A stretch of DNA of 54,509 bases from a virus: positions 1 to 54,509 of IMG/VR virus record IMGVR_UViG_3300025617_000962, one strand, 5' to 3'. The notes under the pieces are model-generated. The model was not told the origin of the DNA, did no database searches, and saw only the letters and a program-made list of their open reading frames with translations. This document shows, one piece after another, positions 1,222 through 49,228 of the stretch. The stretch's first letter is position 1, and each line of letters begins with the position of its first letter. A program made the translations under genes and the position numbers.

Positions 1222-1809
1222 TCATGAAGATAATTGATCCGCCATGCTGTGGTTAACATCTGCATGTCCCTGCTCGTCTGCACGAACTGCTTTGACAACT
1301 TCTCTTAGTCTTGCATTGGGTATTAAATTATAATAGTCAATTGCAATCTGCGGAGCAGGAATGTTTTCAATTACTCCTGCATCAATTTGCTCTAAATATT
1401 GAGTATAACTGATCACAGCTTGATCTTCGAAGTATCCTACCATTCTATGTGCTGTACTTGGAAAGAAAACATATAGAATAAAATAGAAATGCCAAAACAC
1501 AAACTGAGCAAGCAAGATAATTAATCTTTCTAACCAGTTAGGCTTTGCTATCTCTATGAATATCATTAGATGCATACGTTCGTTTTCAGCTTCATCTAAC
1601 AGTGTTTTGATCCAGCCACGTTCATCTGGCTGCATCTTTCTTAGACTACGCAAGTGGTTCCACATGCCTGCTACCATGCCGGGAACCCCTGCTACAGTTT
1701 CTAATACGACTGCTCTATGTCCATAACGCTTGGCGAAGAATGTATCCGCAAACCAGCGAAAGCTCATAGTCAAGCCGTAGGCTACGTTATCTGATAGGTT
1801 AAACCCCAT
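1222..1809 (-). CDS. aox: Alternative oxidase (AOX), di-iron ubiquinol oxidase
   Basis: 195 residues. AOX passes electrons from ubiquinol to oxygen without pumping protons, on the inner face of the membrane. All six expected di-iron ligands are visible: E37 in LETVAGVPGM, E77 and H80 in EAENERMH, E128 in GYFEDQAV, and E179 and H182 in ADEQGH. The middle is hydrophobic, fitting a monotopic membrane protein. The protein is shorter than plant enzymes at the N-terminus but has the full catalytic core. It is the last gene of a minus-strand operon after three small DUF1127-like genes, with its ATG overlapping the previous stop. Cyanophages carry the related plastid-type oxidase PTOX; this one looks more like the mitochondrial/alphaproteobacterial AOX. 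Confidence 0.93.
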   Translation of the reverse strand: MGFNLSDNVAYGLTMSFRWFADTFFAKRYGHRAVVLETVAGVPGMVAGMWNHLRSLRKMQPDERGWIKTLLDEAENERMHLMIFIEIAKPNWLERLIILLAQFVFWHFYFILYVFFPSTAHRMVGYFEDQAVISYTQYLEQIDAGVIENIPAPQIAIDYYNLIPNARLREVVKAVRADEQGHADVNHSMADQLSS

Positions 1810-23260: not shown

Positions 23261-23562
23261 ACGTAAGTGAAGGCGATAAAGCCGTAATAGTATTTTCAAT
23301 CAATCCAAGTAACGTAGGCAGAATTGTTAATGTAGCAGAATATATTGGCAAGTTTGAAAAGGACGAACAGTTTGAAGCACATGGAATGACCTGCACCTGC
23401 CTCGTTCACGATCACTACTGGTGGATTGAAGCAGAGGATCTAAACATACAGTTAGGCCCATCGCCTAAAGCATACATTGCTGACAGTTGGCTACGCAAAC
23501 TTGTAGACCCTAACAAAAAAGTAACAACCAAAGCAGAAAAAGAACTTGACATGTTTGGCTAA
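23257..23562 (+). CDS. Small beta-rich protein, possible SH3-like
   Basis: 101 residues from the ATG at 23257. GDKAVIVFSINPSNVGRIVNVAEYIG looks like an SH3-like barrel start, followed by a CTCLVHDHYWWIEAEDL segment and a helical C-terminus. It is the last gene before the tmRNA. No family is recognised. Confidence 0.55.
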   Translation: MNVSEGDKAVIVFSINPSNVGRIVNVAEYIGKFEKDEQFEAHGMTCTCLVHDHYWWIEAEDLNIQLGPSPKAYIADSWLRKLVDPNKKVTTKAEKELDMFG

Positions 23563-23576
23563 ACGTGCTATAAATA
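23546..23576 (+). promoter_or_regulatory. Overlapping sigma70 and T4-late promoter of the tmRNA
   Basis: TTGACA (23546-23551), a 17-nt spacer and TATAAA (23569-23574). The -10 box is also part of a perfect late core TATAAATA (23569-23576). One site can therefore serve both early and late transcription. Confidence 0.7.
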
Positions 23577-23581
23577 TACTT

Positions 23582-23852
23582 GTAATGTTGAAGCAATTTG
23601 ACGACTGAACTGGACCGCGGGGCAGTACCGCGCATCTCCACCAAATTTACTCTGTAGAGTAAAAACTGATAATTTACTTTGTAGAGTAAATTTGATGGGG
23701 ATGAACTAGGATCGACAGGCAGGATAGATGCGTGGAGTTACCGGGATGTAAGCGCCGTTACCGCGAACAAACTTTATAATTGCAAACGCAAATATAGCAT
23801 TAGCAGCCTAAGGGCAGCTACGGGGTAGCTAGACCCTGTTACCAAACATAGC
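23582..23852 (+). ncRNA. ssrA: Circularly permuted two-piece tmRNA
   Basis: The acceptor piece lies first and ends CATCTCC-ACCA (23633-23643); the coding piece begins GGGGATG (23697-23703). These pair over 7 bp with one G-U, forming the tRNA-like acceptor stem in permuted order as in alphaproteobacterial tmRNA. Upstream, CGCGG/CCGCG with a 7-nt loop gives the T-arm-like stem; its loop GGCAGTA departs from the usual TTCRANY. The tag frame GCA...TAA (23782-23811) encodes ANANIALAA, ending in the ALAA degron. An excised spacer (23644-23696) holds two matching hairpins. tmRNA rescues stalled ribosomes and tags the products. The 5' end is estimated from the promoter. Confidence 0.9.
23644..23690 (+). 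repeat. Twin hairpin repeat in the tmRNA intervening segment
   Basis: AATTTACTCTGTAGAGTAAA (23644-23663) and a copy differing at one base (23671-23690) each fold into a 7-8 bp hairpin. They lie exactly in the part removed during maturation and could be processing sites. Confidence 0.75.
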
Positions 23853-23882
23853 AAGAAAGCACCTTCGGGTGCTTTCTTTTTC
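23853..23882 (+). terminator. Rho-independent terminator of the tmRNA
   Basis: AAGAAAGCACC, a TTCG tetraloop and GGTGCTTTCTT form an 11-bp stem followed by T residues. Confidence 0.92.
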
Positions 23883-24486: not shown

Positions 24487-24704
24487 AACCAAACAACAAC
24501 TTTGAACTTACAGTAAGAGACATTGAGGTTATAGAATCAGCACTAAGAGCAAAGGCTGGACGCAGAGGTTTGGCTATTGCTCAAGGCGAAGTATCAGAAC
24601 AATCTCGTGCTGAAATGCATGAGATACAAGAACTACTGGGCAGAATACACAATCAAAAGAATTGGTACAAGCCCAAAGACGACCGCTTTCAAGGTGGCGG
24701 ATAA
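24483..24704 (+). CDS. 73-residue helical protein
   Basis: Start at 24483 from the ATGA overlap. Two charged helices (TVRDIEVIESALRAKAGR and SRAEMHEIQELLGRIHNQKNW) form a probable helical hairpin; no cysteine or membrane span. It looks like a small phage-type regulator or structural peptide; function unknown. Confidence 0.55.
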   Translation: MKPNNNFELTVRDIEVIESALRAKAGRRGLAIAQGEVSEQSRAEMHEIQELLGRIHNQKNWYKPKDDRFQGGG

Positions 24705-24726
24705 CCATATACGAAAGGAACATAAT

Positions 24727-25164
24727 ATGGCAAGACTACTAACGACTATTGGACTATTAATGGCAATGGCAACAAGTGCCTTTGCAGAAGATGTTACACT
24801 AGAAATGTGGAACAAAGACCCAGACGACAAAAAACGCAAAATGGTTTTCTCGCAAGAGATTGTAACCATTGATGTGGGTGAAAGTGTAACTTGGTTAGCA
24901 ACAGACAAAGGTCACAATGTACAAATGATTGATGGACCAGACGGTGTTAAACTTCCGGGTAAATCAAAAGTATCAAAAGATATAACACTGTCATTTGACA
25001 CACCAGGTGTGTATGTATATGTGTGTACACCACACGCAACAATGGGTATGATTGGTATTGTTGTTGTAGGTGAACTTACACAAGAAGGTGTCGATGCTAT
25101 CAAAGACGCTAAAGTGCGTGGCAAGTCAAAGAAAAAACTAAAAGAACTATTGGCTAATCTGTAA
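24727..25164 (+). CDS. Pseudoazurin-type blue copper protein
   Basis: 145 residues from the ATG at 24727, which has a GAAAGGA site. A signal peptide of 20 residues ends AFA|ED, so it is periplasmic. Copper ligands are H63 (KGHNVQ), C100, H103 and M108 in CTPHATMGMIG, exactly the pseudoazurin pattern. Pseudoazurins carry electrons to nitrite reductase, cytochrome c peroxidase or oxidases in Alphaproteobacteria. The C-terminal 30 residues are Lys-rich, as in that family. A phage copy could redirect periplasmic electron flow; the partner is unknown. Confidence 0.9.
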   Translation: MARLLTTIGLLMAMATSAFAEDVTLEMWNKDPDDKKRKMVFSQEIVTIDVGESVTWLATDKGHNVQMIDGPDGVKLPGKSKVSKDITLSFDTPGVYVYVCTPHATMGMIGIVVVGELTQEGVDAIKDAKVRGKSKKKLKELLANL

Positions 25165-31152: not shown

Positions 31153-33456
31153 ATGATATTTGGAATACTTACTCTTATCACTGCTCTATGTATCAGTGCA
31201 GTGGCAATATATTACTCTGTCGCAGGATTGGTAGCAATCTTTGCGGCAGCAGCTCTACCCATTATGATTATGGGCGGCACATTAGAAATAGCAAAACTTG
31301 TAACCGCAGTGTGGTTACACAAGTACTGGAAGCAAGCTACATGGTGGCTTAAAACGTATCTAAGCGTGGCTGTAGTGGTGCTTATGTTTATTACAAGCAT
31401 GGGCATCTTTGGCTTTCTAAGCAAAGCACACATTGAACAAACAAGTGCCAGTGAAGAAAGTGTAGCAAGAGTAGAAAGTATTACAGATGAAATTGCTAGA
31501 CAGAACGCTATTGTTACTCGTGCAAACACACGCATTGCACAGTTGGAAAACAGTGAAACAGGCGCTGACGCAACTATACAAGCACAAATTGACAAAGAGC
31601 AAACTCGTATTGATCGTGCATTTGAACGTATCCAACCTGCTATACAACAGCAGAATCAAATTATTTCAGATGCAAGAACAGATGATGCAACACGCACAAA
31701 GCCATATGAAGATCAACTTGCTAGTATACAAGCAGAAGTGCTAAGACTAGAGTCTAGTGCAAAAGAATACGAAACAAGTATCACAGAACTTGACACAGAC
31801 AACAGTGCAGTAGAACCATTGCTTGCACAGATTGCCAGTCTTGAAGAAGAAATCATTCGTGTAACCAATCAAATCAATAGTGGCGAGCAACAACAGGTTA
31901 GAGCAGGACAAGCAATTATAGGCGTGTCAAGTGATGGCTTGTTTGGCGGCAACACTAGAACAGCACTAGCAGCTTGGGTAAGTGGACAGCGTGAGCGCAT
32001 CACACAAATACAAGGTGAAGTAGCACAGGTGCGCAAGGATGCAACAGCTACAGTTGATGCAGAGCGTATACGTTTAGCAGATGTAGTCAAAGACATTCGC
32101 ACAGTACAAATTCCTGCACTCAAAGATCGCGAGCTTGCAATGCTTGCTAAGATTGACGAAGTGCGTCAAACAGAGTCCCCTGTTATTAAAACAGCAAGAG
32201 ATGAAATACAGAGACTACGTGAAAGTGCAGAGTCACAAGTAGCACAGTCACAAACACTAATTGAACGTCTACGCAGTCAACTGGGCGATGTAGGCAATGC
32301 ACAAGAACTTGAAGCAGACATAGACGAACAACAAAATCGTATTAGAACTGCTAACACAGAAATTGACACACTCACAGAAGAAAAGATTAAACTAGAAGCA
32401 GAATATCGCAAACTAGAAGCAGAAGTAGGACCTATCAAATACATTGCTGAATTCGTATATGGCGAAGCAGCAGATGGCAACATGCTGGAAGAAGCTGTGC
32501 GTTGGGTAATAATTATTATTATCTTTGTGTTTGATCCACTCGCAGTCCTATTATTAATAGCCGCACAGTATACTTTTGAGTTCCGCAAGAAAGAACTTGA
32601 AGATGATGACGGTGAACGTCTTCGGCTCGAGAGAGCTGAATACGAACGAGCAAGAGCACAAGCAATAGTTGACAATCCTGGAGTTACATTTGATAATCCT
32701 CTACCTGAGGATAGTAGCAATACAGATGTCAGTGCGACTGCCGAACAAAAGGAAGAAGTAGATGACGTCATTAATAGACCTGATGATGGGAAACAAGATC
32801 AAGACACCGCCGACGGAAGTGGAACAGACGCAAGAGATAGTTCCAGCAAAGCCAGCGATGACATCAGAACAGTTGAAAGAGATGATCAACCATCTGGAGC
32901 CGGACACGATGGAGGAGACGATCCCGACAGAGTGGAACAACCCGGAAGAGGAGAGTTAGATGAATACATACAGTCATATATTACAGCAGATAGCACTACA
33001 GCAGATGATGCTAGCAGAGACATTGTATCAGAAACAGATACTGCCGTGGCAGATGCAGATGATACAGAATTGGAACCAACAGAAATACAAGCTGATGAGC
33101 CTCCAAAAAAAGTAGGCGTTATTCCTGATACCAAGAACAGAATGTTCTACCCAGAAGAGCTCCAAAAACCTAAAAAAAAAGTAGAGTCAGAGTTACCGGA
33201 AGAATTAAATCCAAATAGCAAATACTATAGTAAACAGGAGCAAGACGATTCTTGGGTGACTGCCCGGGCAGATTGGGAAGCTAGAAATCCAACTGAAGAC
33301 AGAGCAGCGTGGCGACATGCTTTTGAATCTGGAGAAATAAACTCACTTCCATGGGAAACAGCAGTAATTGATGATAACTACAATACACAAGAAGGTTATC
33401 GGCAAAATGCAGAGCAAAGCGACAATACATTGTTTAACAAACTATCTAACAAATAG
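31153..33456 (+). CDS. Large membrane coiled-coil protein
   Basis: 767 residues. Three hydrophobic segments at the N-terminus (about 3-20, 25-50 and 70-92), then about 330 residues of coiled coil (for example ARVESITDEIARQNAI, NRIRTANTEIDTLTEEKI), another hydrophobic hairpin near 447-477 (WVIIIIIFVFDPLAVLLLIA) and a long acidic, probably disordered C-terminal region (about 510-767). A similar architecture occurs in marine T4-like phages, from memory, with unknown role. A scaffold linking membrane and cytosol, or a large lysis/virion-assembly factor, is possible. Confidence 0.65.
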   Translation: MIFGILTLITALCISAVAIYYSVAGLVAIFAAAALPIMIMGGTLEIAKLVTAVWLHKYWKQATWWLKTYLSVAVVVLMFITSMGIFGFLSKAHIEQTSASEESVARVESITDEIARQNAIVTRANTRIAQLENSETGADATIQAQIDKEQTRIDRAFERIQPAIQQQNQIISDARTDDATRTKPYEDQLASIQAEVLRLESSAKEYETSITELDTDNSAVEPLLAQIASLEEEIIRVTNQINSGEQQQVRAGQAIIGVSSDGLFGGNTRTALAAWVSGQRERITQIQGEVAQVRKDATATVDAERIRLADVVKDIRTVQIPALKDRELAMLAKIDEVRQTESPVIKTARDEIQRLRESAESQVAQSQTLIERLRSQLGDVGNAQELEADIDEQQNRIRTANTEIDTLTEEKIKLEAEYRKLEAEVGPIKYIAEFVYGEAADGNMLEEAVRWVIIIIIFVFDPLAVLLLIAAQYTFEFRKKELEDDDGERLRLERAEYERARAQAIVDNPGVTFDNPLPEDSSNTDVSATAEQKEEVDDVINRPDDGKQDQDTADGSGTDARDSSSKASDDIRTVERDDQPSGAGHDGGDDPDRVEQPGRGELDEYIQSYITADSTTADDASRDIVSETDTAVADADDTELEPTEIQADEPPKKVGVIPDTKNRMFYPEELQKPKKKVESELPEELNPNSKYYSKQEQDDSWVTARADWEARNPTEDRAAWRHAFESGEINSLPWETAVIDDNYNTQEGYRQNAEQSDNTLFNKLSNK

Positions 33457-33463
33457 GTCCTAA

Positions 33464-33862
33464 GTGAACAAAATTAATATAGTCACTGCACCAGATATGC
33501 TATTCAACGACAGTCTTCAACTGTTGTTGGTGTATCCTAGCAAGCAGATACAAGATGAACTCCAAAACAACTTTTTAACTAACATAGAAGTAGATGTTAA
33601 TATATACGTTTATGATAAACCTGTGTATGATAAAAAAGAAGTTGAATGGCTGTTAAATGTCTTTAAACAGTGTGACACAACAATAGTAGATATAGATAAT
33701 ACATCACCCTGGGCCAGAGACCTTTTAAGCTATATGATAGCTAAAAACAAGACATATTGGTTGACAAACAGCCAAGATTCAGTATATAATAGTTTAAGTA
33801 ATAATAAAGTTTATAACTTAGATTTTTTGTCTAATATAGGAGATAATTTTGAGACAGAATAA
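33464..33862 (+). CDS. Uncharacterised protein upstream of bS21
   Basis: 132 residues with a Rossmann-like alternation: strands [19 protein letters not shown] and VDVNIYVYD, then [16 protein letters not shown] and [10 protein letters not shown]. It is AT-rich and its 3' end overlaps the bS21 gene by 14 nt, so translation of the two is coupled. No catalytic motif is recognised. Confidence 0.6.
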
Positions 33863-34100: not shown

Positions 34101-35234
34101 ATGCGCATTGATAATGAAGTTCGATTGGATTACAAAGACGTACTAATTCGTCCCAAGCGTAGTACTCTTAAAAGTCGCTCTCAAGTGCGACTTGAGCGTA
34201 AGTTCACATTTCGCAACTATGAGCCGCCGTTTCCACAAAATATCAAAGATGATCACTATGAAGGTATTCCTATTATGGCTGCTAACATGGATGGCGTTGG
34301 TACGTTTGAAATGGCAGACACACTAGGCGCTCAAGGCATCTTTACTTGTCTAGTTAAAACATACACTGCGGAAGAACTTATTGATTATTTCTACGGTGAC
34401 GGACTCAATCGCACAGACTATGTAGCTATGAGCATTGGCACAAGCGAAGCAGACTTTGAAAAGTTGTGTGCTGTGTCTGAGAAGTGCGAAGACAATCTAA
34501 AATACGTGTGTATGGATATTGCAAATGGATATTCAGAACACTTTGCAGATCGAGTACGTGAAGTGCGCAAACGCTTCCCACACATTGTAATCATCGCAGG
34601 TAATGTTGTTACAGGCGAAATGACGGAGGAACTTATTCTTGCTGGAGCCGATATTGTTAAAGTGGGTATTGGCCCTGGTAGTGTTTGTACTACTCGTATT
34701 CAAACTGGGGTGGGATATCCGCAACTGTCAGCAGTTATCGAGTGTGCAGACGCGGCGCACGGTCTTGGCGGACATATCATTGCTGATGGTGGTTGCACTT
34801 GTCCTGGGGACGTGGCTAAAGCCTTTGCAGCTGGCGCTGACTTTGTAATGCTAGGCGGTATGCTAGCAGGACACGACGAAGGCGGTGGCAAAGTAATTAC
34901 AAAAAGTTACCTAACAAACGAATTAAGCGAAAAATCAGGATACACTGAACAATATGTAGAAACAAAAGAGTTTGTGCAGTTCTACGGTATGAGTAGTGAT
35001 GCCGCAAACACAAAGCATTTTGGCGGATTGAAAGATTATCGTTCGTCAGAAGGTAGAGAAGTACTTGTTCCCTATCGCGGAGCAGTGGCTACTACCGTAC
35101 AAGACTTGCTCGGAGGTATTCGATCAACTTGTACATACGCAGGCGCTATGAAGCTCAAGCAACTTAGCAAATGCACAACCTTTGTTCGTTGTACACAGCA
35201 ATTTAATGCTGTTTATGCGAATAATAATAAATAA
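34101..35234 (+). CDS. guaC: GMP reductase
   Basis: 377 residues. [55 protein letters not shown] (catalytic Cys in SVCTTR) and [28 protein letters not shown] are GuaC signatures; there is no CBS module, unlike IMP dehydrogenase. It converts GMP to IMP with NADPH, letting the phage rebalance A and G nucleotides from degraded host RNA/DNA. The ATG follows the bS21 stop by 9 nt with an AGAGG site. Confidence 0.93.
35226..35233 (+). promoter_or_regulatory. Late-type promoter core before groES
   Basis: AATAAATA at the very end of guaC. The leader after it holds a GGAAC/GTTCC hairpin and a small CTTG/CAAG stem touching the AAGGAG site. No CIRCE repeat is present, so the host HrcA type of control is absent. 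Confidence 0.45.
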
Positions 35235-35287: not shown

Positions 35288-37211
<1,924 letters not shown>

Positions 37212-37285: not shown

Positions 37286-37756
37286 ATGACAAGACTAACA
37301 ACTCTAGACCTACCTTCATTCCACAGATCAACTGTAGGATTTGACAGACTATTTAACGAACTGGACAGACAGTTTACTAACAGTCAATCACAAGGTTACC
37401 CACCATACAACATTGCACAGATCAACGAAGACGAGTTTATGATTACACTTGCTGTCGCTGGCCTCGGCATGGATAACTTGGACATTACCAAAGACGGTAA
37501 CATCCTACGTGTAGAAGGTACTTCGCCTAAGGGTGGAGAACATGTAAACTATTTGCACAAAGGAATTGCAGAGCGCAACTTCCGTAGAGAGTTTACACTT
37601 GCTGATCACGTTGAAGTTGAAAGCGCAGGCCTTGAGCATGGCATGCTGAACATTCATCTCAAGCGTGAAGTTCCAGAAGAATTGCAGCCCAAGAAGATTG
37701 CAATCAAAGACTGGAACGGACACGTTCAAGAAGCAATTGACACTGACAGCGAGTAA
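37286..37756 (+). CDS. Small heat-shock protein Hsp20 (IbpA-type)
   Basis: 156 residues. The alpha-crystallin core runs from YPPYNIAQINEDEFMITLAVAG to NFRREFTLADHVEVESAGLEHGMLNIHLKRE; the I-x-I-type anchor KKIAI is near the end. Such proteins hold unfolding proteins for refolding by DnaK/GroEL. Hsp20 genes are common in T4-like marine phages, but here the gene lies beside a full groESL pair. Own AGGAG site and terminator. Confidence 0.94.
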   Translation: MTRLTTLDLPSFHRSTVGFDRLFNELDRQFTNSQSQGYPPYNIAQINEDEFMITLAVAGLGMDNLDITKDGNILRVEGTSPKGGEHVNYLHKGIAERNFRREFTLADHVEVESAGLEHGMLNIHLKREVPEELQPKKIAIKDWNGHVQEAIDTDSE

Positions 37757-37762
37757 GCAGTC

Positions 37763-37798
37763 TTTGGGGAAGTGTAACAGCTTCCCCAATTTATTTTA
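37763..37798 (+). terminator. Rho-independent terminator after hsp20
   Basis: TTGGGGAAG pairs with CTTCCCCAA around an 8-nt loop, then TTTATTTT. Confidence 0.92.
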
Positions 37799-37808
37799 GG
37801 AGATAAGA

Positions 37809-38117
37809 ATGAGTACAGATACAGACGTCATAATTGACGAAAAGATCAAACAAACAGTTAAAGAGCCGAGTAATTATAATGTTATTATGCTCAATGATGA
37901 CACTACTCCTGTAGAATGGGTTATCGGTGTACTTAAACAAATTTTTAAACACACTGATGTAAATGCAGAATCTTTAACAATGAGTATTCATAATGAAGGA
38001 TCGGCTGTTGTTGGTACGTATAAGTACGAGATAGCAGAGCAAAAAAGTAACGAAGCAATTAATGCCAGTCGTAATCACGGATTTTCCTTACAAGTGAAAG
38101 TAGAAGAATCGGAATGA
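37809..38117 (+). CDS. clpS: ClpS adaptor
   Basis: 102 residues. YNVIMLNDDTTPVEWVIGVL has the NDD pocket residues, and IHNEGSAVVGTYKYEIAEQK the later ClpS core; SLQVKVEESE closes the domain. ClpS delivers N-degron proteins to ClpAP and slows ClpA degradation of SsrA-tagged ones. The phage also makes a tmRNA, so it may steer the host protease. ATGA overlap with the heme oxygenase gene suggests the two share a transcript. Confidence 0.93.
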   Translation: MSTDTDVIIDEKIKQTVKEPSNYNVIMLNDDTTPVEWVIGVLKQIFKHTDVNAESLTMSIHNEGSAVVGTYKYEIAEQKSNEAINASRNHGFSLQVKVEESE

Positions 38118-38671
38118 GTAATTTAAAAGACCTTACATGGGAACATCATAAAAATGCAGAAAGACAATCATTTGTAAAAGAAATGTTCGCCAAAGAGCCA
38201 CAGATAAGTGTAGAACGTTACGCATGTTATCTTTTCAATCAACATCCACAATACAACATGCTAGAAATGCTGTCAATGATGCATGGACTGTTTGATGGAA
38301 TGCCCGAACTGCGCAGAGCACCTAGCATACATGAAGACTATCAAGAACTGTGGGGCGAAGCAAATGCTAATCAACCTCCATTGATGCCTGTTGTAAAAGA
38401 TTACATGGATCATTTGATGAGTATCAAAGACGATGCAGACAAGCTGATGGCACATGTGTACGTAAGACACATGGGAGACCTAAGCGGCGGACAAATGATT
38501 GCTAAACGTGTTCCCGGAGAAGGCCGCATGTATAAGTTTGATCGAGATCATGATGAACTCAAAGAGCTAGTACGTGCAAGACTAGATGATAGTATGGCAG
38601 ACGAAGCAAAGTTGTGTTTTGACTTTGCAACTAAGATGTTTCAGCAATTGGGAGAAATTAAAAATGATTAG
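38114..38671 (+). CDS. ho1: Heme oxygenase (HO1 family)
   Basis: 185 residues. The proximal heme ligand is His12 in HHKNAE; HVYVRHMGDLSGGQMIAKRV (about 112-131) is the distal helix with the flexible Gly pair. The enzyme opens heme to biliverdin IX-alpha, iron and CO with reduced ferredoxin. It overlaps clpS and the next gene by 4 and 8 nt. A bilin reductase gene follows one gene later, so biliverdin is probably the pathway intermediate rather than only an iron source. Confidence 0.94.
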   Translation: MSNLKDLTWEHHKNAERQSFVKEMFAKEPQISVERYACYLFNQHPQYNMLEMLSMMHGLFDGMPELRRAPSIHEDYQELWGEANANQPPLMPVVKDYMDHLMSIKDDADKLMAHVYVRHMGDLSGGQMIAKRVPGEGRMYKFDRDHDELKELVRARLDDSMADEAKLCFDFATKMFQQLGEIKND

Positions 38672-39461
38672 AATTGGTGCAGCACAAATTCCCGTAACTT
38701 CTAGTATGACTCAAAATGTCGAGCACATTAAAACTGCACTCGATTGGGCAGGAAAAAACCAAGTAAATTACTTGTTAACTCCCGAAGGATCATTAAGTGG
38801 ATATCTTAACACCTACAGAGATCTCGAAACTAGCAATATCGAAAGTTTATTACAAGATGTAGTATCTTATGCAACAAGCAAATCAGTATGTCTAGCATTA
38901 GGAACAGAAATTATTAAAGAAGTAGATTTTGGAAAAGTTAAACGCAGTCAAATTCAATACTACGATGATACTGGATTTTCTATTGGCGAGTATAATAAAC
39001 AAATGACAATACCAGGCGAACATTCATACCCTGGTAGCGGTCCTGAAATTATAAAAGCTGAAGGACTTCAAACAACCGGATCCTATAAATTTAATATTGG
39101 ATCTTTGATATGTAATGACATGTGGGGCCAGCGGGACGACACACAAATTTTAATTAGAGATTTATTTTATTATACCAACTCTAATGTTGATGTAATATTT
39201 CATGCCAGTAACGGATTTCGTGGTCAAGAAGCTGGAGACGAAGAAGCAAATAAAAATTTAAGAAAGTTTTCAGATATGCATCTTTGGATGGCATCAAGAT
39301 ATAGAATTCCTATAGTAACAGTTGACAATTGTTATAAAATGGACGGCGAGTTTTATGACGGTCCTACTAGTAGTACCAGTGGAATAATACACAATGGCGA
39401 ATGGTTAGTAAAAGCAAAGCCAAACGGCATTGATTATTTTTATTACGATTTTAACTTTTAG
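38664..39461 (+). CDS. Nitrilase-superfamily amidohydrolase A
   Basis: 265 residues from the ATG at 38664, which overlaps the ho1 end and follows GGGAG. The Glu-Lys-Cys triad is E in LTPEGSLSGY (about 36), K in YNKQMTIPGE (about 112) and C in SLICNDMWG (about 150). Carbon-nitrogen hydrolases of this fold cleave amides or nitriles. It sits between heme oxygenase and bilin reductase, has AT-rich codon use, and has a close paralogue at 48341. The substrate is unknown; a link to bilins is only positional. Confidence 0.82.
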   Translation: MIRIGAAQIPVTSSMTQNVEHIKTALDWAGKNQVNYLLTPEGSLSGYLNTYRDLETSNIESLLQDVVSYATSKSVCLALGTEIIKEVDFGKVKRSQIQYYDDTGFSIGEYNKQMTIPGEHSYPGSGPEIIKAEGLQTTGSYKFNIGSLICNDMWGQRDDTQILIRDLFYYTNSNVDVIFHASNGFRGQEAGDEEANKNLRKFSDMHLWMASRYRIPIVTVDNCYKMDGEFYDGPTSSTSGIIHNGEWLVKAKPNGIDYFYYDFNF

Positions 39462-39470
39462 GAAATTATT

Positions 39471-40157
39471 ATGAGTGTTATTTGGGATAGACTGATAGAG
39501 TGTAAAGATGAAATTATCAACATATTTGAAGAAAATGCGTCAGAGTTTGAAGAACCAGGTCTTGCCCATTTTAATAACGATTTGTGGATTAATCGCGTTT
39601 GGCGCAATGATCATGTTAGGCGGGCTCACATTGATGTTGTAGACGCTCGTGACACAAAAGGCTTATGGATGATGCATGTGTGTGTATTTCCTGTACTCAA
39701 CAACGACGGTCCTATCTACGGTTTTGATGTTATTGCTGGCAAGAACAAAATGACAGGTGCTTTTCACGACTTTAGTGCTAGTGCTACATTTGATCATCCA
39801 ATGATTGAAGGCTATAAGGAAGCAGTAGCAGACTTTATCCCCAAGAAGCAACGACAACTACCTGAATGGGCTACTAATATTTTTACAGACAAAATGCTGG
39901 CAGCTGGCAATGTAAACAGTGAAGAAGAAGCAGTTGCCATTATTGAACTTGCACAAGACAATCTCCGTGCATACTTTGATGAGATAGGCGAGTTTACAGG
40001 GTTCGGCGATAGGAGTTTAGTAACCGCAGCACAAAACTATTACTGTCATAATCAGCAACAGAATCCGCACACACCTCGTACTATGAAAAGTTTAGGACTT
40101 AACGAAGAAGACGTTGACCGTTTCTGTACAGATATGTTGTTTCCTAAAATTGCATAA
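39471..40157 (+). CDS. pcyX: Ferredoxin-dependent bilin reductase, PcyX-like
   Basis: 228 residues. The core HVCVFPVLNNDGPIYGFDVIAG followed by GAFHDFSAS is the FDBR signature. His69 and Asp86 are 17 apart, the same as His88/Asp105 of PcyA; the PcyA Glu76 position appears as Asp55 in AHIDVVDAR. FDBRs reduce biliverdin to phycobilins with ferredoxin. The PcyX clade, described from oceanic viral metagenomes beside ho1, makes phycoerythrobilin by four-electron reduction. The same gene order here and the length support PcyX over PebS or PcyA, but clade placement needs a tree. Confidence 0.85.
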   Translation: MSVIWDRLIECKDEIINIFEENASEFEEPGLAHFNNDLWINRVWRNDHVRRAHIDVVDARDTKGLWMMHVCVFPVLNNDGPIYGFDVIAGKNKMTGAFHDFSASATFDHPMIEGYKEAVADFIPKKQRQLPEWATNIFTDKMLAAGNVNSEEEAVAIIELAQDNLRAYFDEIGEFTGFGDRSLVTAAQNYYCHNQQQNPHTPRTMKSLGLNEEDVDRFCTDMLFPKIA

Positions 40158-41957: not shown

Positions 41958-43118
41958 ATGAAGAAACTTCTCTTAACAACAATTACGACTATGGTTTTAG
42001 CAACATCAGCTGTGGCACAAACTACTGTGGATGGAGTTACGTATGATAGTTCTAGTTACGTGGGCACAGACAGTAACACTACAACTAACAGTACTGTAAA
42101 CTCAACAAATACAAACACCAACAATACTACTATTGATAGTACAAACACCAATACAAACACCAATACCAGTACAATAAACAGCACTGGTACAAATACCAAT
42201 ACGAATACAAACACTAATACTAATACTAATACTAACGATACTACATATACTGGTACAACTACCAGTACCAATACAAACACTAACAACAATATTTTAAGTG
42301 GCGGTACAAACAATACAAATACCAACACAAATACTAATACCAGTACAATTGATAGTACAAGTACTAACACAAATATTAATACAAACAACAATATTTTAAG
42401 TGGTGGTACAAACAATACTAATACCAACACAAATGTTAATACTAGTACGATTGATCAGACTACTAACAATACTAACAACAGCACTATTAACAGTACAAAT
42501 GATAGTACGATCAATCAAACGACTAATAGTACTATAGATCAAAATATTAATCAAAATGTAAACAGTAATGTGACTAGTAACAACACAAATACTAATACAA
42601 ACAACAATACTAATAATACAACTGTAGACAGTACATCAGAAAATACAAACAATAATAACAACAATAACAACAACACTAGCGATATTACACAGAGAGTTAT
42701 TTCTCCACCGCCAACTGCTATTGCTCCAACAGTGCAAATGGGCGGCAATGACACATGTACTGTAACATACTCAGCGGCTGTACAAACACAGATACTTGGT
42801 GCAAGTGGCGGCGGACACGTTCGTGACTTGAACTGTGAGCGATTAAAGAACTCCAAAACACTCTACAACATGGGTATGAAAGTTGCGGCTGTGAGTTTGA
42901 TGTGTCAAGATTCAAGTGTATATCGTGCTATGGAAATGGCAGGAACACCTTGTCCGTTTGACGGCTCAATTGGCGCAGAAGCTAAAGCACAATGGGAAGC
43001 AAATCCAGAAATGCAGCCTACTAATATAGAGCAGGAGACAAGACGCAATGATAAAGCTGAAGGTGCTATCCAAGGCATACTTGCTGCTGGCTTGCTTACT
43101 TTGCTTCTCGGCATATAA
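41958..43118 (+). CDS. Exported Asn/Thr-repeat protein with C-terminal anchor
   Basis: 386 residues. Signal peptide 1-20 (AVAQ|TT). Residues about 35-235 are almost only Asn, Thr, Ser, with dipeptide NT runs and two copies of a 34-residue unit NILSGGTNNTNTNTN (102-bp spacing). Residues about 245-360 form a Cys-containing domain (GNDTCTVTY, LNCERLKN, SLMCQDSS, GTPCPFDG; four cysteines). The last 15-20 residues (GILAAGLLTLLLG) are hydrophobic. A surface or periplasmic beta-solenoid-like stalk is likely. The end overlaps the next gene by 71 nt. Confidence 0.7.
   Translation: MKKLLLTTITTMVLATSAVAQTTVDGVTYDSSSYVGTDSNTTTNSTVNSTNTNTNNTTIDSTNTNTNTNTSTINSTGTNTNTNTNTNTNTNTNDTTYTGTTTSTNTNTNNNILSGGTNNTNTNTNTNTSTIDSTSTNTNINTNNNILSGGTNNTNTNTNVNTSTIDQTTNNTNNSTINSTNDSTINQTTNSTIDQNINQNVNSNVTSNNTNTNTNNNTNNTTVDSTSENTNNNNNNNNNTSDITQRVISPPPTAIAPTVQMGGNDTCTVTYSAAVQTQILGASGGGHVRDLNCERLKNSKTLYNMGMKVAAVSLMCQDSSVYRAMEMAGTPCPFDGSIGAEAKAQWEANPEMQPTNIEQETRRNDKAEGAIQGILAAGLLTLLLGI
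42286..42445 (+). repeat. Direct repeat, 102-bp period, inside the Asn/Thr gene
   Basis: Two near-identical copies (starting at about 42286 and 42388) encode NNNILSGGTNNTNTNTN. The surrounding AAC/ACA-rich sequence is itself a degenerate microsatellite, so repeat number may vary between related phages. Confidence 0.7.
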
Positions 43119-48340: not shown

Positions 48341-49228
48341 ATGTCCAAAATAAGAGTTGCAGGAGCACAACTTCCATGCTCTGATAATCTTGATAAAAAT
48401 ATTGCAGACATTAAAGATGCAATTGTATGGGCTAGTAAAAATAAAGTAGATTACTTATTAACACCCGAAGGCAGTCTGTCTGGATATTTTCCAGACTTTG
48501 ACACTCGTTCTGGCAGATCAATACAAGATGTGTATGCTGCTGAAAATGATGTAGTGCAGCATGCTACCAAACATCAAGTAGGGCTGTGTCTTGGAACGAT
48601 GTGGGGAGAAGAAGACAATAAATTTGTAGAAGGATATCGAAGAGAGAATCAAATCAGATTCTATTCAAAAGCTGGTGAATTTTTAGGAAGCACAAACAAA
48701 ACTCTTACAATTCCAGAATACGACCAAACTGTAATTTCTGAAGACATTAAACTAATAGATATCGAAACTAATGGAAATATTTTTTCAGCATCAGGTTTAA
48801 TTTGCAATGATTTTTGGGGAGGGCCTTTAAGTAATAAAAAGTCACTACCAATTTATGTTAAAGAAGATCTGAATGCACAGATTATATTTCATGCCACTAA
48901 TGGATTCAAAGGAGAACTTCCTAACTATGATGAAATTACTAATGCTTGGCACGAAGGTAATTTAAGGATGATGAGTTACATACTTAAAATACCTATTATT
49001 ACTGTCGATAGCTGTTATAAAATGAACGGTGAAGCATATACCGGCAGTACTAGCAGTCAAAGCGGAATTTTATTGTATGGAATGTGGAAAGTTAAAGCAC
49101 CTAGGCAAGGCATACAATATTTTTATTACGATTTTGATTATCAAGAATTGATAAATTCTAATCTAAATAAAAATCCAGATCAAGAACAATTAGATTTAAA
49201 TCCCTTTATTGGAGGAACAACAGCATGA
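48341..49228 (+). CDS. Nitrilase-superfamily amidohydrolase B
   Basis: 295 residues. Triad: E in LTPEGSLSGY (about 44), K in STNKTLTIPE (about 123) and C in GLICNDFWGG (about 159). It shares with the gene at 38664 the landmarks GAQ-P, LLTPEGSLSGY, FHA-NGF-G, ITVDSCYKMNGE and YFYYDF, so the two are paralogues, but it has an extra C-terminal 30 residues. It is AT-rich, like its paralogue. Substrate unknown. Confidence 0.8.
   Translation: MSKIRVAGAQLPCSDNLDKNIADIKDAIVWASKNKVDYLLTPEGSLSGYFPDFDTRSGRSIQDVYAAENDVVQHATKHQVGLCLGTMWGEEDNKFVEGYRRENQIRFYSKAGEFLGSTNKTLTIPEYDQTVISEDIKLIDIETNGNIFSASGLICNDFWGGPLSNKKSLPIYVKEDLNAQIIFHATNGFKGELPNYDEITNAWHEGNLRMMSYILKIPIITVDSCYKMNGEAYTGSTSSQSGILLYGMWKVKAPRQGIQYFYYDFDYQELINSNLNKNPDQEQLDLNPFIGGTTA

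Follow-up and report, generated by a model that had tools for sequence, protein, structure and literature searches.

A stretch of viral DNA of 54,509 nucleotides (IMG/VR virus record IMGVR_UViG_3300025617_000962; hereafter the window) carries a compact run of genes in which a heme oxygenase (HO), a nitrilase-superfamily protein and a ferredoxin-dependent bilin reductase (FDBR) of the PcyX type directly follow a gene for ClpS. In loci gathered with several different bait genes, ClpS and the bilin reductase strongly tend to be present together or absent together, and this link is a property of the larger PcyX branch to which the window belongs. The most likely explanation, to which we give a probability of roughly 45%, is that the cassette serves a jumbo T4-like marine phage in recycling heme: it would recycle iron and dispose of biliverdin by converting it to phycoerythrobilin (PEB).

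The pairing of HO with PcyX is not itself new. Such a pair from uncultured oceanic viruses, making PEB and with an alphaproteobacterial host proposed, was described in 2016, according to later papers that cite that work (PMC4928673, PMC11480375, PMC7242693), and several marine and freshwater HO-FDBR contigs have also been described (PMC11480375). The central inference of the original prediction for this DNA, namely HO and PcyX in a phage of a probably alphaproteobacterial host, had therefore been published in 2016 and 2024. Likewise, the isolate Mosig had already provided the genome context that the family was expected to gain from the window (PMC11480375). What is new lies in the link to ClpS, the placement in a jumbo phage and the recurrence of the nitrilase, rather than in PcyX itself. 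No report of ClpS beside a phage HO or PcyX gene was found in the open literature, a search that did not extend to the contig maps of the 2016 PcyX paper.

Linkage of ClpS to heme oxygenase and PcyX

The three genes named in the original prediction (HO, nitrilase and FDBR) were confirmed in position, strand and Pfam family, and they close a longer series of features:

34101..35234, + strand: GMP reductase (NF003470, 524 bits), the upstream neighbor, used as an independent bait
35288..37211, + strand: GroES-GroEL pair, found in some relatives only, others having DnaK or nothing
37286..37756, + strand: Hsp20 small heat-shock protein (PF00011, E 2e-15), a conserved neighbor
37764..37789, + strand: conserved G-rich hairpin in the hsp20-clpS spacer, immediately 5' of the clpS-HO-nitrilase-pcyX genes
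37809..38117, + strand: ClpS, N-degron adaptor of ClpAP (PF02617, E 1.4e-26)
38114..38671, + strand: heme oxygenase (PF01126, E 6e-20), His12 and GD..GG motif conserved
38664..39461, + strand: nitrilase-superfamily amidase, start corrected (PF00795, E 1e-7), between HO and PcyX
39471..40157, + strand: PcyX-type ferredoxin-dependent bilin reductase (PF05996, 55 bits, cut-off 31)

The whole run in the window reads GroES-GroEL-Hsp20-ClpS-HO-nitrilase-PcyX. It had been taken for one overlapping run of three genes. ClpS and HO do overlap by 4 bp and HO and nitrilase by 8 bp, but a gap of 9 bp separates nitrilase from FDBR and the run begins well upstream with GroES. Ratios of nonsynonymous to synonymous substitution rates (dN/dS) against relatives are ~0.05-0.09 for FDBR, <0.1 for HO, ~0.1-0.2 for ClpS and ~0.28 for the nitrilase, with some dS values saturated. 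With ratios this low, these four are working genes under purifying selection and not chance open reading frames (ORFs). The assignment of ClpS to its family is indicated by the Pfam match together with the substrate-pocket residues N29, D30, T33, P34 and H61, which are conserved in 85 distinct relatives.

Among the 101 distinct FDBR loci that have at least 1.4 kb of upstream sequence, 88 show the order ClpS-HO-(x)-FDBR. Hsp20 lies upstream of ClpS in nearly all of these, GMP reductase is found farther up, and GroES-GroEL or DnaK is present in some. Additional baits (GMP reductase, HO and ClpS) were used to counter the bias inherent in collecting loci with FDBR. When GMP reductase served as the bait, 55 loci extended far enough downstream; 36 of them had Hsp20, ClpS and FDBR (35 also HO), 19 had none of the four, and no locus was mixed for ClpS and FDBR. 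With HO as the bait, ClpS and FDBR were both present in 59 loci and both absent from 7, again with no mixed locus. ClpS as the bait yielded HO and FDBR in all 16 new loci with room for them, and a divergent ClpS locus (L444) has neither. Although the loci are contigs rather than independent events, they show a strong all-or-none pattern for ClpS and PcyX.

The Mosig/EBK42635 branch has no ClpS beside HO, and therefore the ClpS link belongs to the larger branch that includes the window. Pelagibacter phage Mosig EXVC030M (MT647606) resembles the window in having HO overlapping PcyX (53% identity), a phage tmRNA, a T4-like core and an Hsp20 gene, the last located elsewhere in its genome. However, its genome is 141 kb, its HO-PcyX pair adjoins a neck gene and 2-oxoglutarate (2OG)-Fe(II) oxygenases with no ClpS or nitrilase at that site, and it has its own 2Fe-2S ferredoxin gene (Pfam Fer2). 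PcyX_EBK42635, which also adjoins HO and stems from an uncultured marine phage with a proposed non-cyanobacterial host, groups with Mosig. In comparison, the window lineage adds the upstream Hsp20-ClpS genes and, in some members, a nitrilase between HO and PcyX. The freshwater phage CB_2 (hemO-pcyA/X plus valaS; Wegner et al. 2024, PMC11480375) likewise combines HO with an FDBR and has a supposed alphaproteobacterial host, but carries 5-aminolevulinate synthase rather than ClpS or a nitrilase. Jumbo phages are known to encode a ClpS adaptor, for which a role in directing host ClpAP has been proposed (PMC7824862), although no bilin genes are reported adjacent there. In one sub-lineage (L013, L017 and L018), the FDBR gene (86% identical) has been relocated from HO/ClpS to a DNA-metabolism region.

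Of 78 distinct Hsp20-ClpS spacers, 74 contain the hairpin, compared to 1.2% of shuffled sequences, whereas none of 41 spacers between GMP reductase and Hsp20 does. It looks like a terminator in the window, but a plain terminator function was rejected, given that a U-run follows in only 16 of 76 spacers. Farther upstream, a perfect sigma-70 consensus (TTGACA-18-TATAAT, 33761-33790) lies within the gene preceding that for GMP reductase. Occurrences of the T4 late promoter TATAAATA were not above chance. Most relatives also conserve, at a site upstream of these genes, a 767-residue membrane coiled-coil protein of no clear family (31153-33456).

Identity of the bilin reductase and heme oxygenase

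The characterized PEB synthase of known structure, PcyX_EBK42635 (5owg), is matched by the window FDBR with a phmmer E value of 1.3e-80, as opposed to 4e-13 for cyanobacterial PcyA. Identity to PcyX_EBK42635 is 54% over 225 residues, and the two proteins agree at every one of the 19 positions compared (active-site or conserved), among them His69, Asp86 and Asp55. The first two residues had been singled out in the original prediction. All three are kept in the 81 viral FDBRs first aligned and in at least 97% of 101 aligned rows. Asp55 occupies the position of the catalytic Glu76 of PcyA and is Asp in 81 of the 81 viral FDBRs first aligned, and PcyX is reported to lack Glu76 (PMC10151467).

In a tree of 63 FDBRs, the window enzyme, EBK42635 and the enzyme of pelagiphage Mosig fall into a 41-row clade (Shimodaira-Hasegawa-like approximate likelihood-ratio support of 100) that is separate from cyanobacterial and cyanophage PcyA and from PebA, PebB and PebS. 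Alphaproteobacterial PcyA is not among these 63 sequences; a scan of 385 genomes of one class yielded nothing closer than distant FDBR-like proteins, which fell on long, unreliable branches. An AlphaFold model of the window FDBR (mean predicted local distance difference test score, pLDDT, of 95.7) has 5owg as its best match (Foldseek E 1.2e-16; root-mean-square deviation, rmsd, of 0.8 A over 179 residues; Z 27.1). PcyA is near in Z (26.0) but has an rmsd of 2.5 A, and PebS structures rank lower, at Z ~18.

Taken together, these sequence and model comparisons identify the window FDBR as PcyX, in agreement with the original prediction, which would have failed had the enzyme grouped with cyanobacterial or cyanophage PcyA or PebS. 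A cyanobacterial or cyanophage PcyA is rejected by Asp55 in place of Glu76 and by the position of the enzyme outside the PcyA rows of the tree. Similarly, a cyanophage PebS is rejected by the Peb rows forming their own clade without the window and by the structural ranking. PEB is the likely product. A bacterial origin of PcyX also found no support, as a genome scan gave only phage-like contigs in metagenome-assembled genomes (MAGs) and cyanobacterial PcyA. L116, from a Nonlabens assembly, is itself a T4-like phage contig.

The HO protein shows the features of an HO-1-type enzyme, with a Pfam family match, the proximal His12 and the distal GD(LS)GG motif, both as originally predicted. At least 97% of 96 distinct relatives retain these residues, and HO activity is predicted.

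The recurrent nitrilase gene

The longest ORF of the nitrilase begins at 38586, and the real start is the methionine at 38664. A modeled alpha-beta-beta-alpha fold (pLDDT 91) and a Glu41-Lys112-Cys150 triad that is invariant in 10 relatives place the predicted protein in the nitrilase superfamily. Finer assignment is frustrated by the many amidases that match the model almost equally well (Z 26-29, 12-20% identity), with near-tied scores to the N-carbamoylputrescine amidohydrolase, NAD synthetase glutaminase, NitN and D-carbamoylase branches. For the first two of these functions the matches were weak as well as near-tied, and the NCBIfam NAD+ synthase model scored 17.5 bits against a cut-off of 479. 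A single-sequence PDB search with the nitrilase gave no match.

This gene had been considered an unexplained one-off extra, but it is recurrent. Ten of the 101 distinct loci have a nitrilase between HO and FDBR, a frequency that is over-estimated because the nitrilase itself was one bait. Two of these 10 loci also have a tryptophan halogenase and one has a second HO gene. The inserted nitrilases fall into at least two clades among stand-alone copies, and therefore the gene entered the HO-PcyX slot more than once, by at least two insertions. In L244 (1129-3255) two different HO genes flank the nitrilase (ClpS-HO-NIT-HO2-FDBR), and a tryptophan halogenase-like flavoprotein lies between HO and PcyX in L075 (5537-7105) and L059 (6484-8004).

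An association of nitrilase with viral bilin genes is also seen outside the PcyX family. In a phage collection, nitrilase relatives occur in P-SSM2, P-SSM5, AG-345-E02, AG-345-F15, AG-345-P14 and Sf-FS3 (phages or single cells), all six of which also carry PebS, compared to approximately 7 of 29 carriers of tryptophan halogenase, an accessory gene chosen as a control. For approximately four independent lineages, the chance of this overlap is of the order of 0.003 at the control rate, or 1e-4 at a 10% base rate, for which 434 MCP-positive records formed the base. Cyanophage P-SSM2, whose ho1-pebS genes likewise provide one-enzyme PEB synthesis, differs from the window in that PebS belongs to another FDBR clade, its nitrilase and pebS genes are far apart, and its host is a cyanobacterium.

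The link between nitrilase and bilin genes is suggestive, and the nitrilase might be a pathway partner, an amidase acting on a bilin, a heme precursor or a biliprotein. This we regard as quite unlikely, despite the repeated insertions and the overlap with PebS. No FDBR is seen on 29 of 33 IMG/VR contigs with a nitrilase, one of them 180 kb, and most PcyX loci lack a nitrilase. Furthermore, the Sf-FS3 nitrilase sits in a sugar cluster, tryptophan halogenase can take the same slot, and selection is weaker on the nitrilase than on its neighbors. The window also has a second gene of this superfamily:

48341..49228, + strand: second nitrilase-superfamily gene (PF00795, E 2.5e-5), which adjoins a peroxiredoxin gene and groups with stand-alone copies

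On some marine T4-like phage contigs (L289, L287, L274 and L258), genes of the nitrilase family stand two or three in tandem.

Phage, host and function of the cassette

The virus record that makes up the window lacks complete ends. It is colinear with positions 313.6-355 kb of G001, a contig of 357.6 kb. Among the other genes of G001 are those for a T4-like terminase, portal, major capsid protein, prohead protease, sheath, clamp loader and polymerase related to Mosig's. Judged by this colinearity, the window represents approximately one-seventh of a jumbo T4-like myophage genome. Further relatives reach 237-275 kb, and one 335-kb contig has been placed in a MAG. Since FDBRs of this kind are found in at least 370 IMG/VR stretches, the phage group is common in the sea. 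Some phage contigs lie inside public bacterial genomes or MAGs (L111-L114 and L116): one that is phage-like and 335 kb long sits in a Neomarinimicrobiota MAG, for instance, and another of 188 kb in the assembly of a Nonlabens isolate. A phage ferrochelatase considered for Mosig and G001 was rejected due to a lack of Pfam support. Iron-linked genes of the window include an iron-dependent NrdB, AOX, a 2OG-Fe(II) oxygenase and an NfuA-like scaffold. Downstream of the cassette lies a secreted repeat protein that is extremely rich in Asn and Thr (41958-43118), and one relative (L006) has curli-like genes at that place.

Related contigs were scanned for genes that bear on host and function: 29 for the PHY domain, Fer2 and transfer-messenger RNA (tmRNA), and 40 for the phycobiliprotein domain, AOX and copper proteins. 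These contigs are fragments, from which an unlinked gene could escape detection. A permuted two-piece tmRNA is present in the window (23532-23879, tag ANANIALAA) and in 22 of the 29 contigs, with tags that vary and reach 30 residues in L107/L110. Of 10 distinct tmRNAs, eight best fit the alphaproteobacterial model, two (including that of the window) the betaproteobacterial model and none the cyanobacterial model. The phage probably has a non-cyanobacterial host, because none of 40 related contigs has a phycobilisome-domain gene and most of the distinct tmRNAs are of the alpha type. A proteobacterial host is likely as well.

This much of the original prediction stands, but its narrower proposal of an alphaproteobacterial host, drawn from the tmRNA, AOX and DUF1127 genes, goes beyond the evidence. 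The window tmRNA is of the beta type, and two-piece tmRNAs also occur in pelagiphages, in cyanobacteria and in an OM43 phage that may have switched hosts (PMC9004378). AOX and a DUF1127 protein are encoded at the left end of the window (1222-1809 and 2112-2360, - strand), but AOX is found in only 3 of 40 related contigs, with relatives in Pseudomonadota at up to 60-70% identity. The window GroEL is closer to E. coli GroEL (764 bits) than to Paracoccus GroEL (679 bits). The nearest isolate, Mosig, infects Pelagibacter, and no Pelagibacter-type link other than Mosig was found. A pseudoazurin-like blue copper protein is encoded at 24577-25164, and a few relatives have similar ones. A heme-free respiration package of HO, AOX and blue copper protein was rejected: like AOX, a plausible copper protein is no fixed partner, occurring in 6 of the 40 contigs.

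The scheme that we favor begins with known activities: HO breaks heme down to biliverdin, CO and Fe2+, PcyX depends on ferredoxin, and ClpS delivers N-degron substrates to ClpAP. Having ClpS and Hsp20 as fixed partners of the cassette suggests that host proteins, perhaps including hemoproteins, may be sent to ClpAP by the phage. HO would then open the heme of the host, giving biliverdin IXalpha along with CO and Fe2+, and PcyX with host ferredoxin would reduce biliverdin via 15,16-dihydrobiliverdin to PEB in two 2-electron steps. In this way freed heme could be cleaved for its iron, while reactive biliverdin would be disposed of as PEB, with the nitrilase as an optional amidase. Enzyme identities, conserved residues, fold, purifying selection and linkage derive from sequences, a tree and structural models, and from these we infer catalysis, PEB formation, hemoprotein turnover and a benefit from iron. 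No PHY domain was found in the 29 related contigs and no phycobiliprotein domain in the 40, which, together with the constant presence of ClpS and Hsp20, makes heme recycling the most likely function. An iron-supply role has also been discussed for such phages (PMC11480375).

Several observations weigh against this scheme. Mosig-like PcyX phages do without ClpS beside HO, and thus ClpS is not needed for PcyX. The connection drawn between ClpS and hemoproteins is putative and indirect. Iron release does not require biliverdin reduction. The original prediction suggested looking for a phage ferredoxin, but none of the Fer2 family was found in the 29 related contigs, and therefore electrons would have to come from the host or from another or unrecognized ferredoxin family. 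An unlinked bilin-binding protein might be missed on fragmentary contigs. Finally, the FDBR of CB_2, which falls between PcyX and PcyA, makes phycocyanobilin (PMC11480375), which leaves the product uncertain when judged by tree or sequence alone.

A somewhat unlikely alternative is pure disposal or antioxidant defense, in which HO and PcyX would clear heme from lysis or proteolysis, with iron and pigment incidental. Stress and quality-control neighbors (Hsp20, GroESL/DnaK, ClpS, peroxiredoxin and tmRNA) are consistent with this role, but heme could be removed by HO alone, and the very strong constraint on PcyX argues that its reaction matters. A more ambitious version of heme recycling, which we think unlikely, has ClpS-HO-PcyX as a dedicated hemoprotein-recycling operon. 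ClpS would reprogram host ClpAP to destroy hemoproteins or enzymes of the tetrapyrrole pathway, HO would take the iron, PcyX would make PEB, and the nitrilase would act on the same flow. Equally unlikely is the use of PEB as a chromophore by some photoreceptor or biliprotein, encoded either by the phage or by its non-cyanobacterial host. PcyX does make a specific light-absorbing bilin, which goes beyond mere heme degradation, a phage FDBR product can assemble with phytochrome (PMC11480375), and heterotrophs have bilin-binding globins (PMC10151467). However, the domain scans oppose this use, including the phytochrome-type receptor that the original prediction envisaged, and no lyase or globin gene was seen in the cassette. 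A cyanobacterial host whose phycobilisomes the phage supplies, as proposed for cyanophage PebS, is most improbable: HO plus PcyX yields a phycobilisome pigment, as established for EBK42635, and marine cyanobacteria also have two-piece tmRNAs, but the separate PcyX clade, the Pelagibacter isolate, the tmRNAs of relatives (alpha or beta type) and the lack of phycobilisome-domain genes all point elsewhere.

The description of PcyX in 2016 posed a puzzle that has stood open since then: why should phages of non-phototrophic hosts produce a pigment of photosynthesis? That PcyX strictly co-occurs with ClpS, and usually also with Hsp20, provides a first strong genetic hint of function, pointing to protein and heme turnover. 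The characterized PcyX falls in a minor branch, and a nitrilase keeps recurring with viral bilin genes. If the dedicated operon exists, it would represent a new coupling of regulated proteolysis with bilin synthesis. ClpS-HO-PcyX is a small, testable operon, and the jumbo marine phages that carry it are a common group. Its ClpS link suggests that such phages recycle host heme rather than harvest light.

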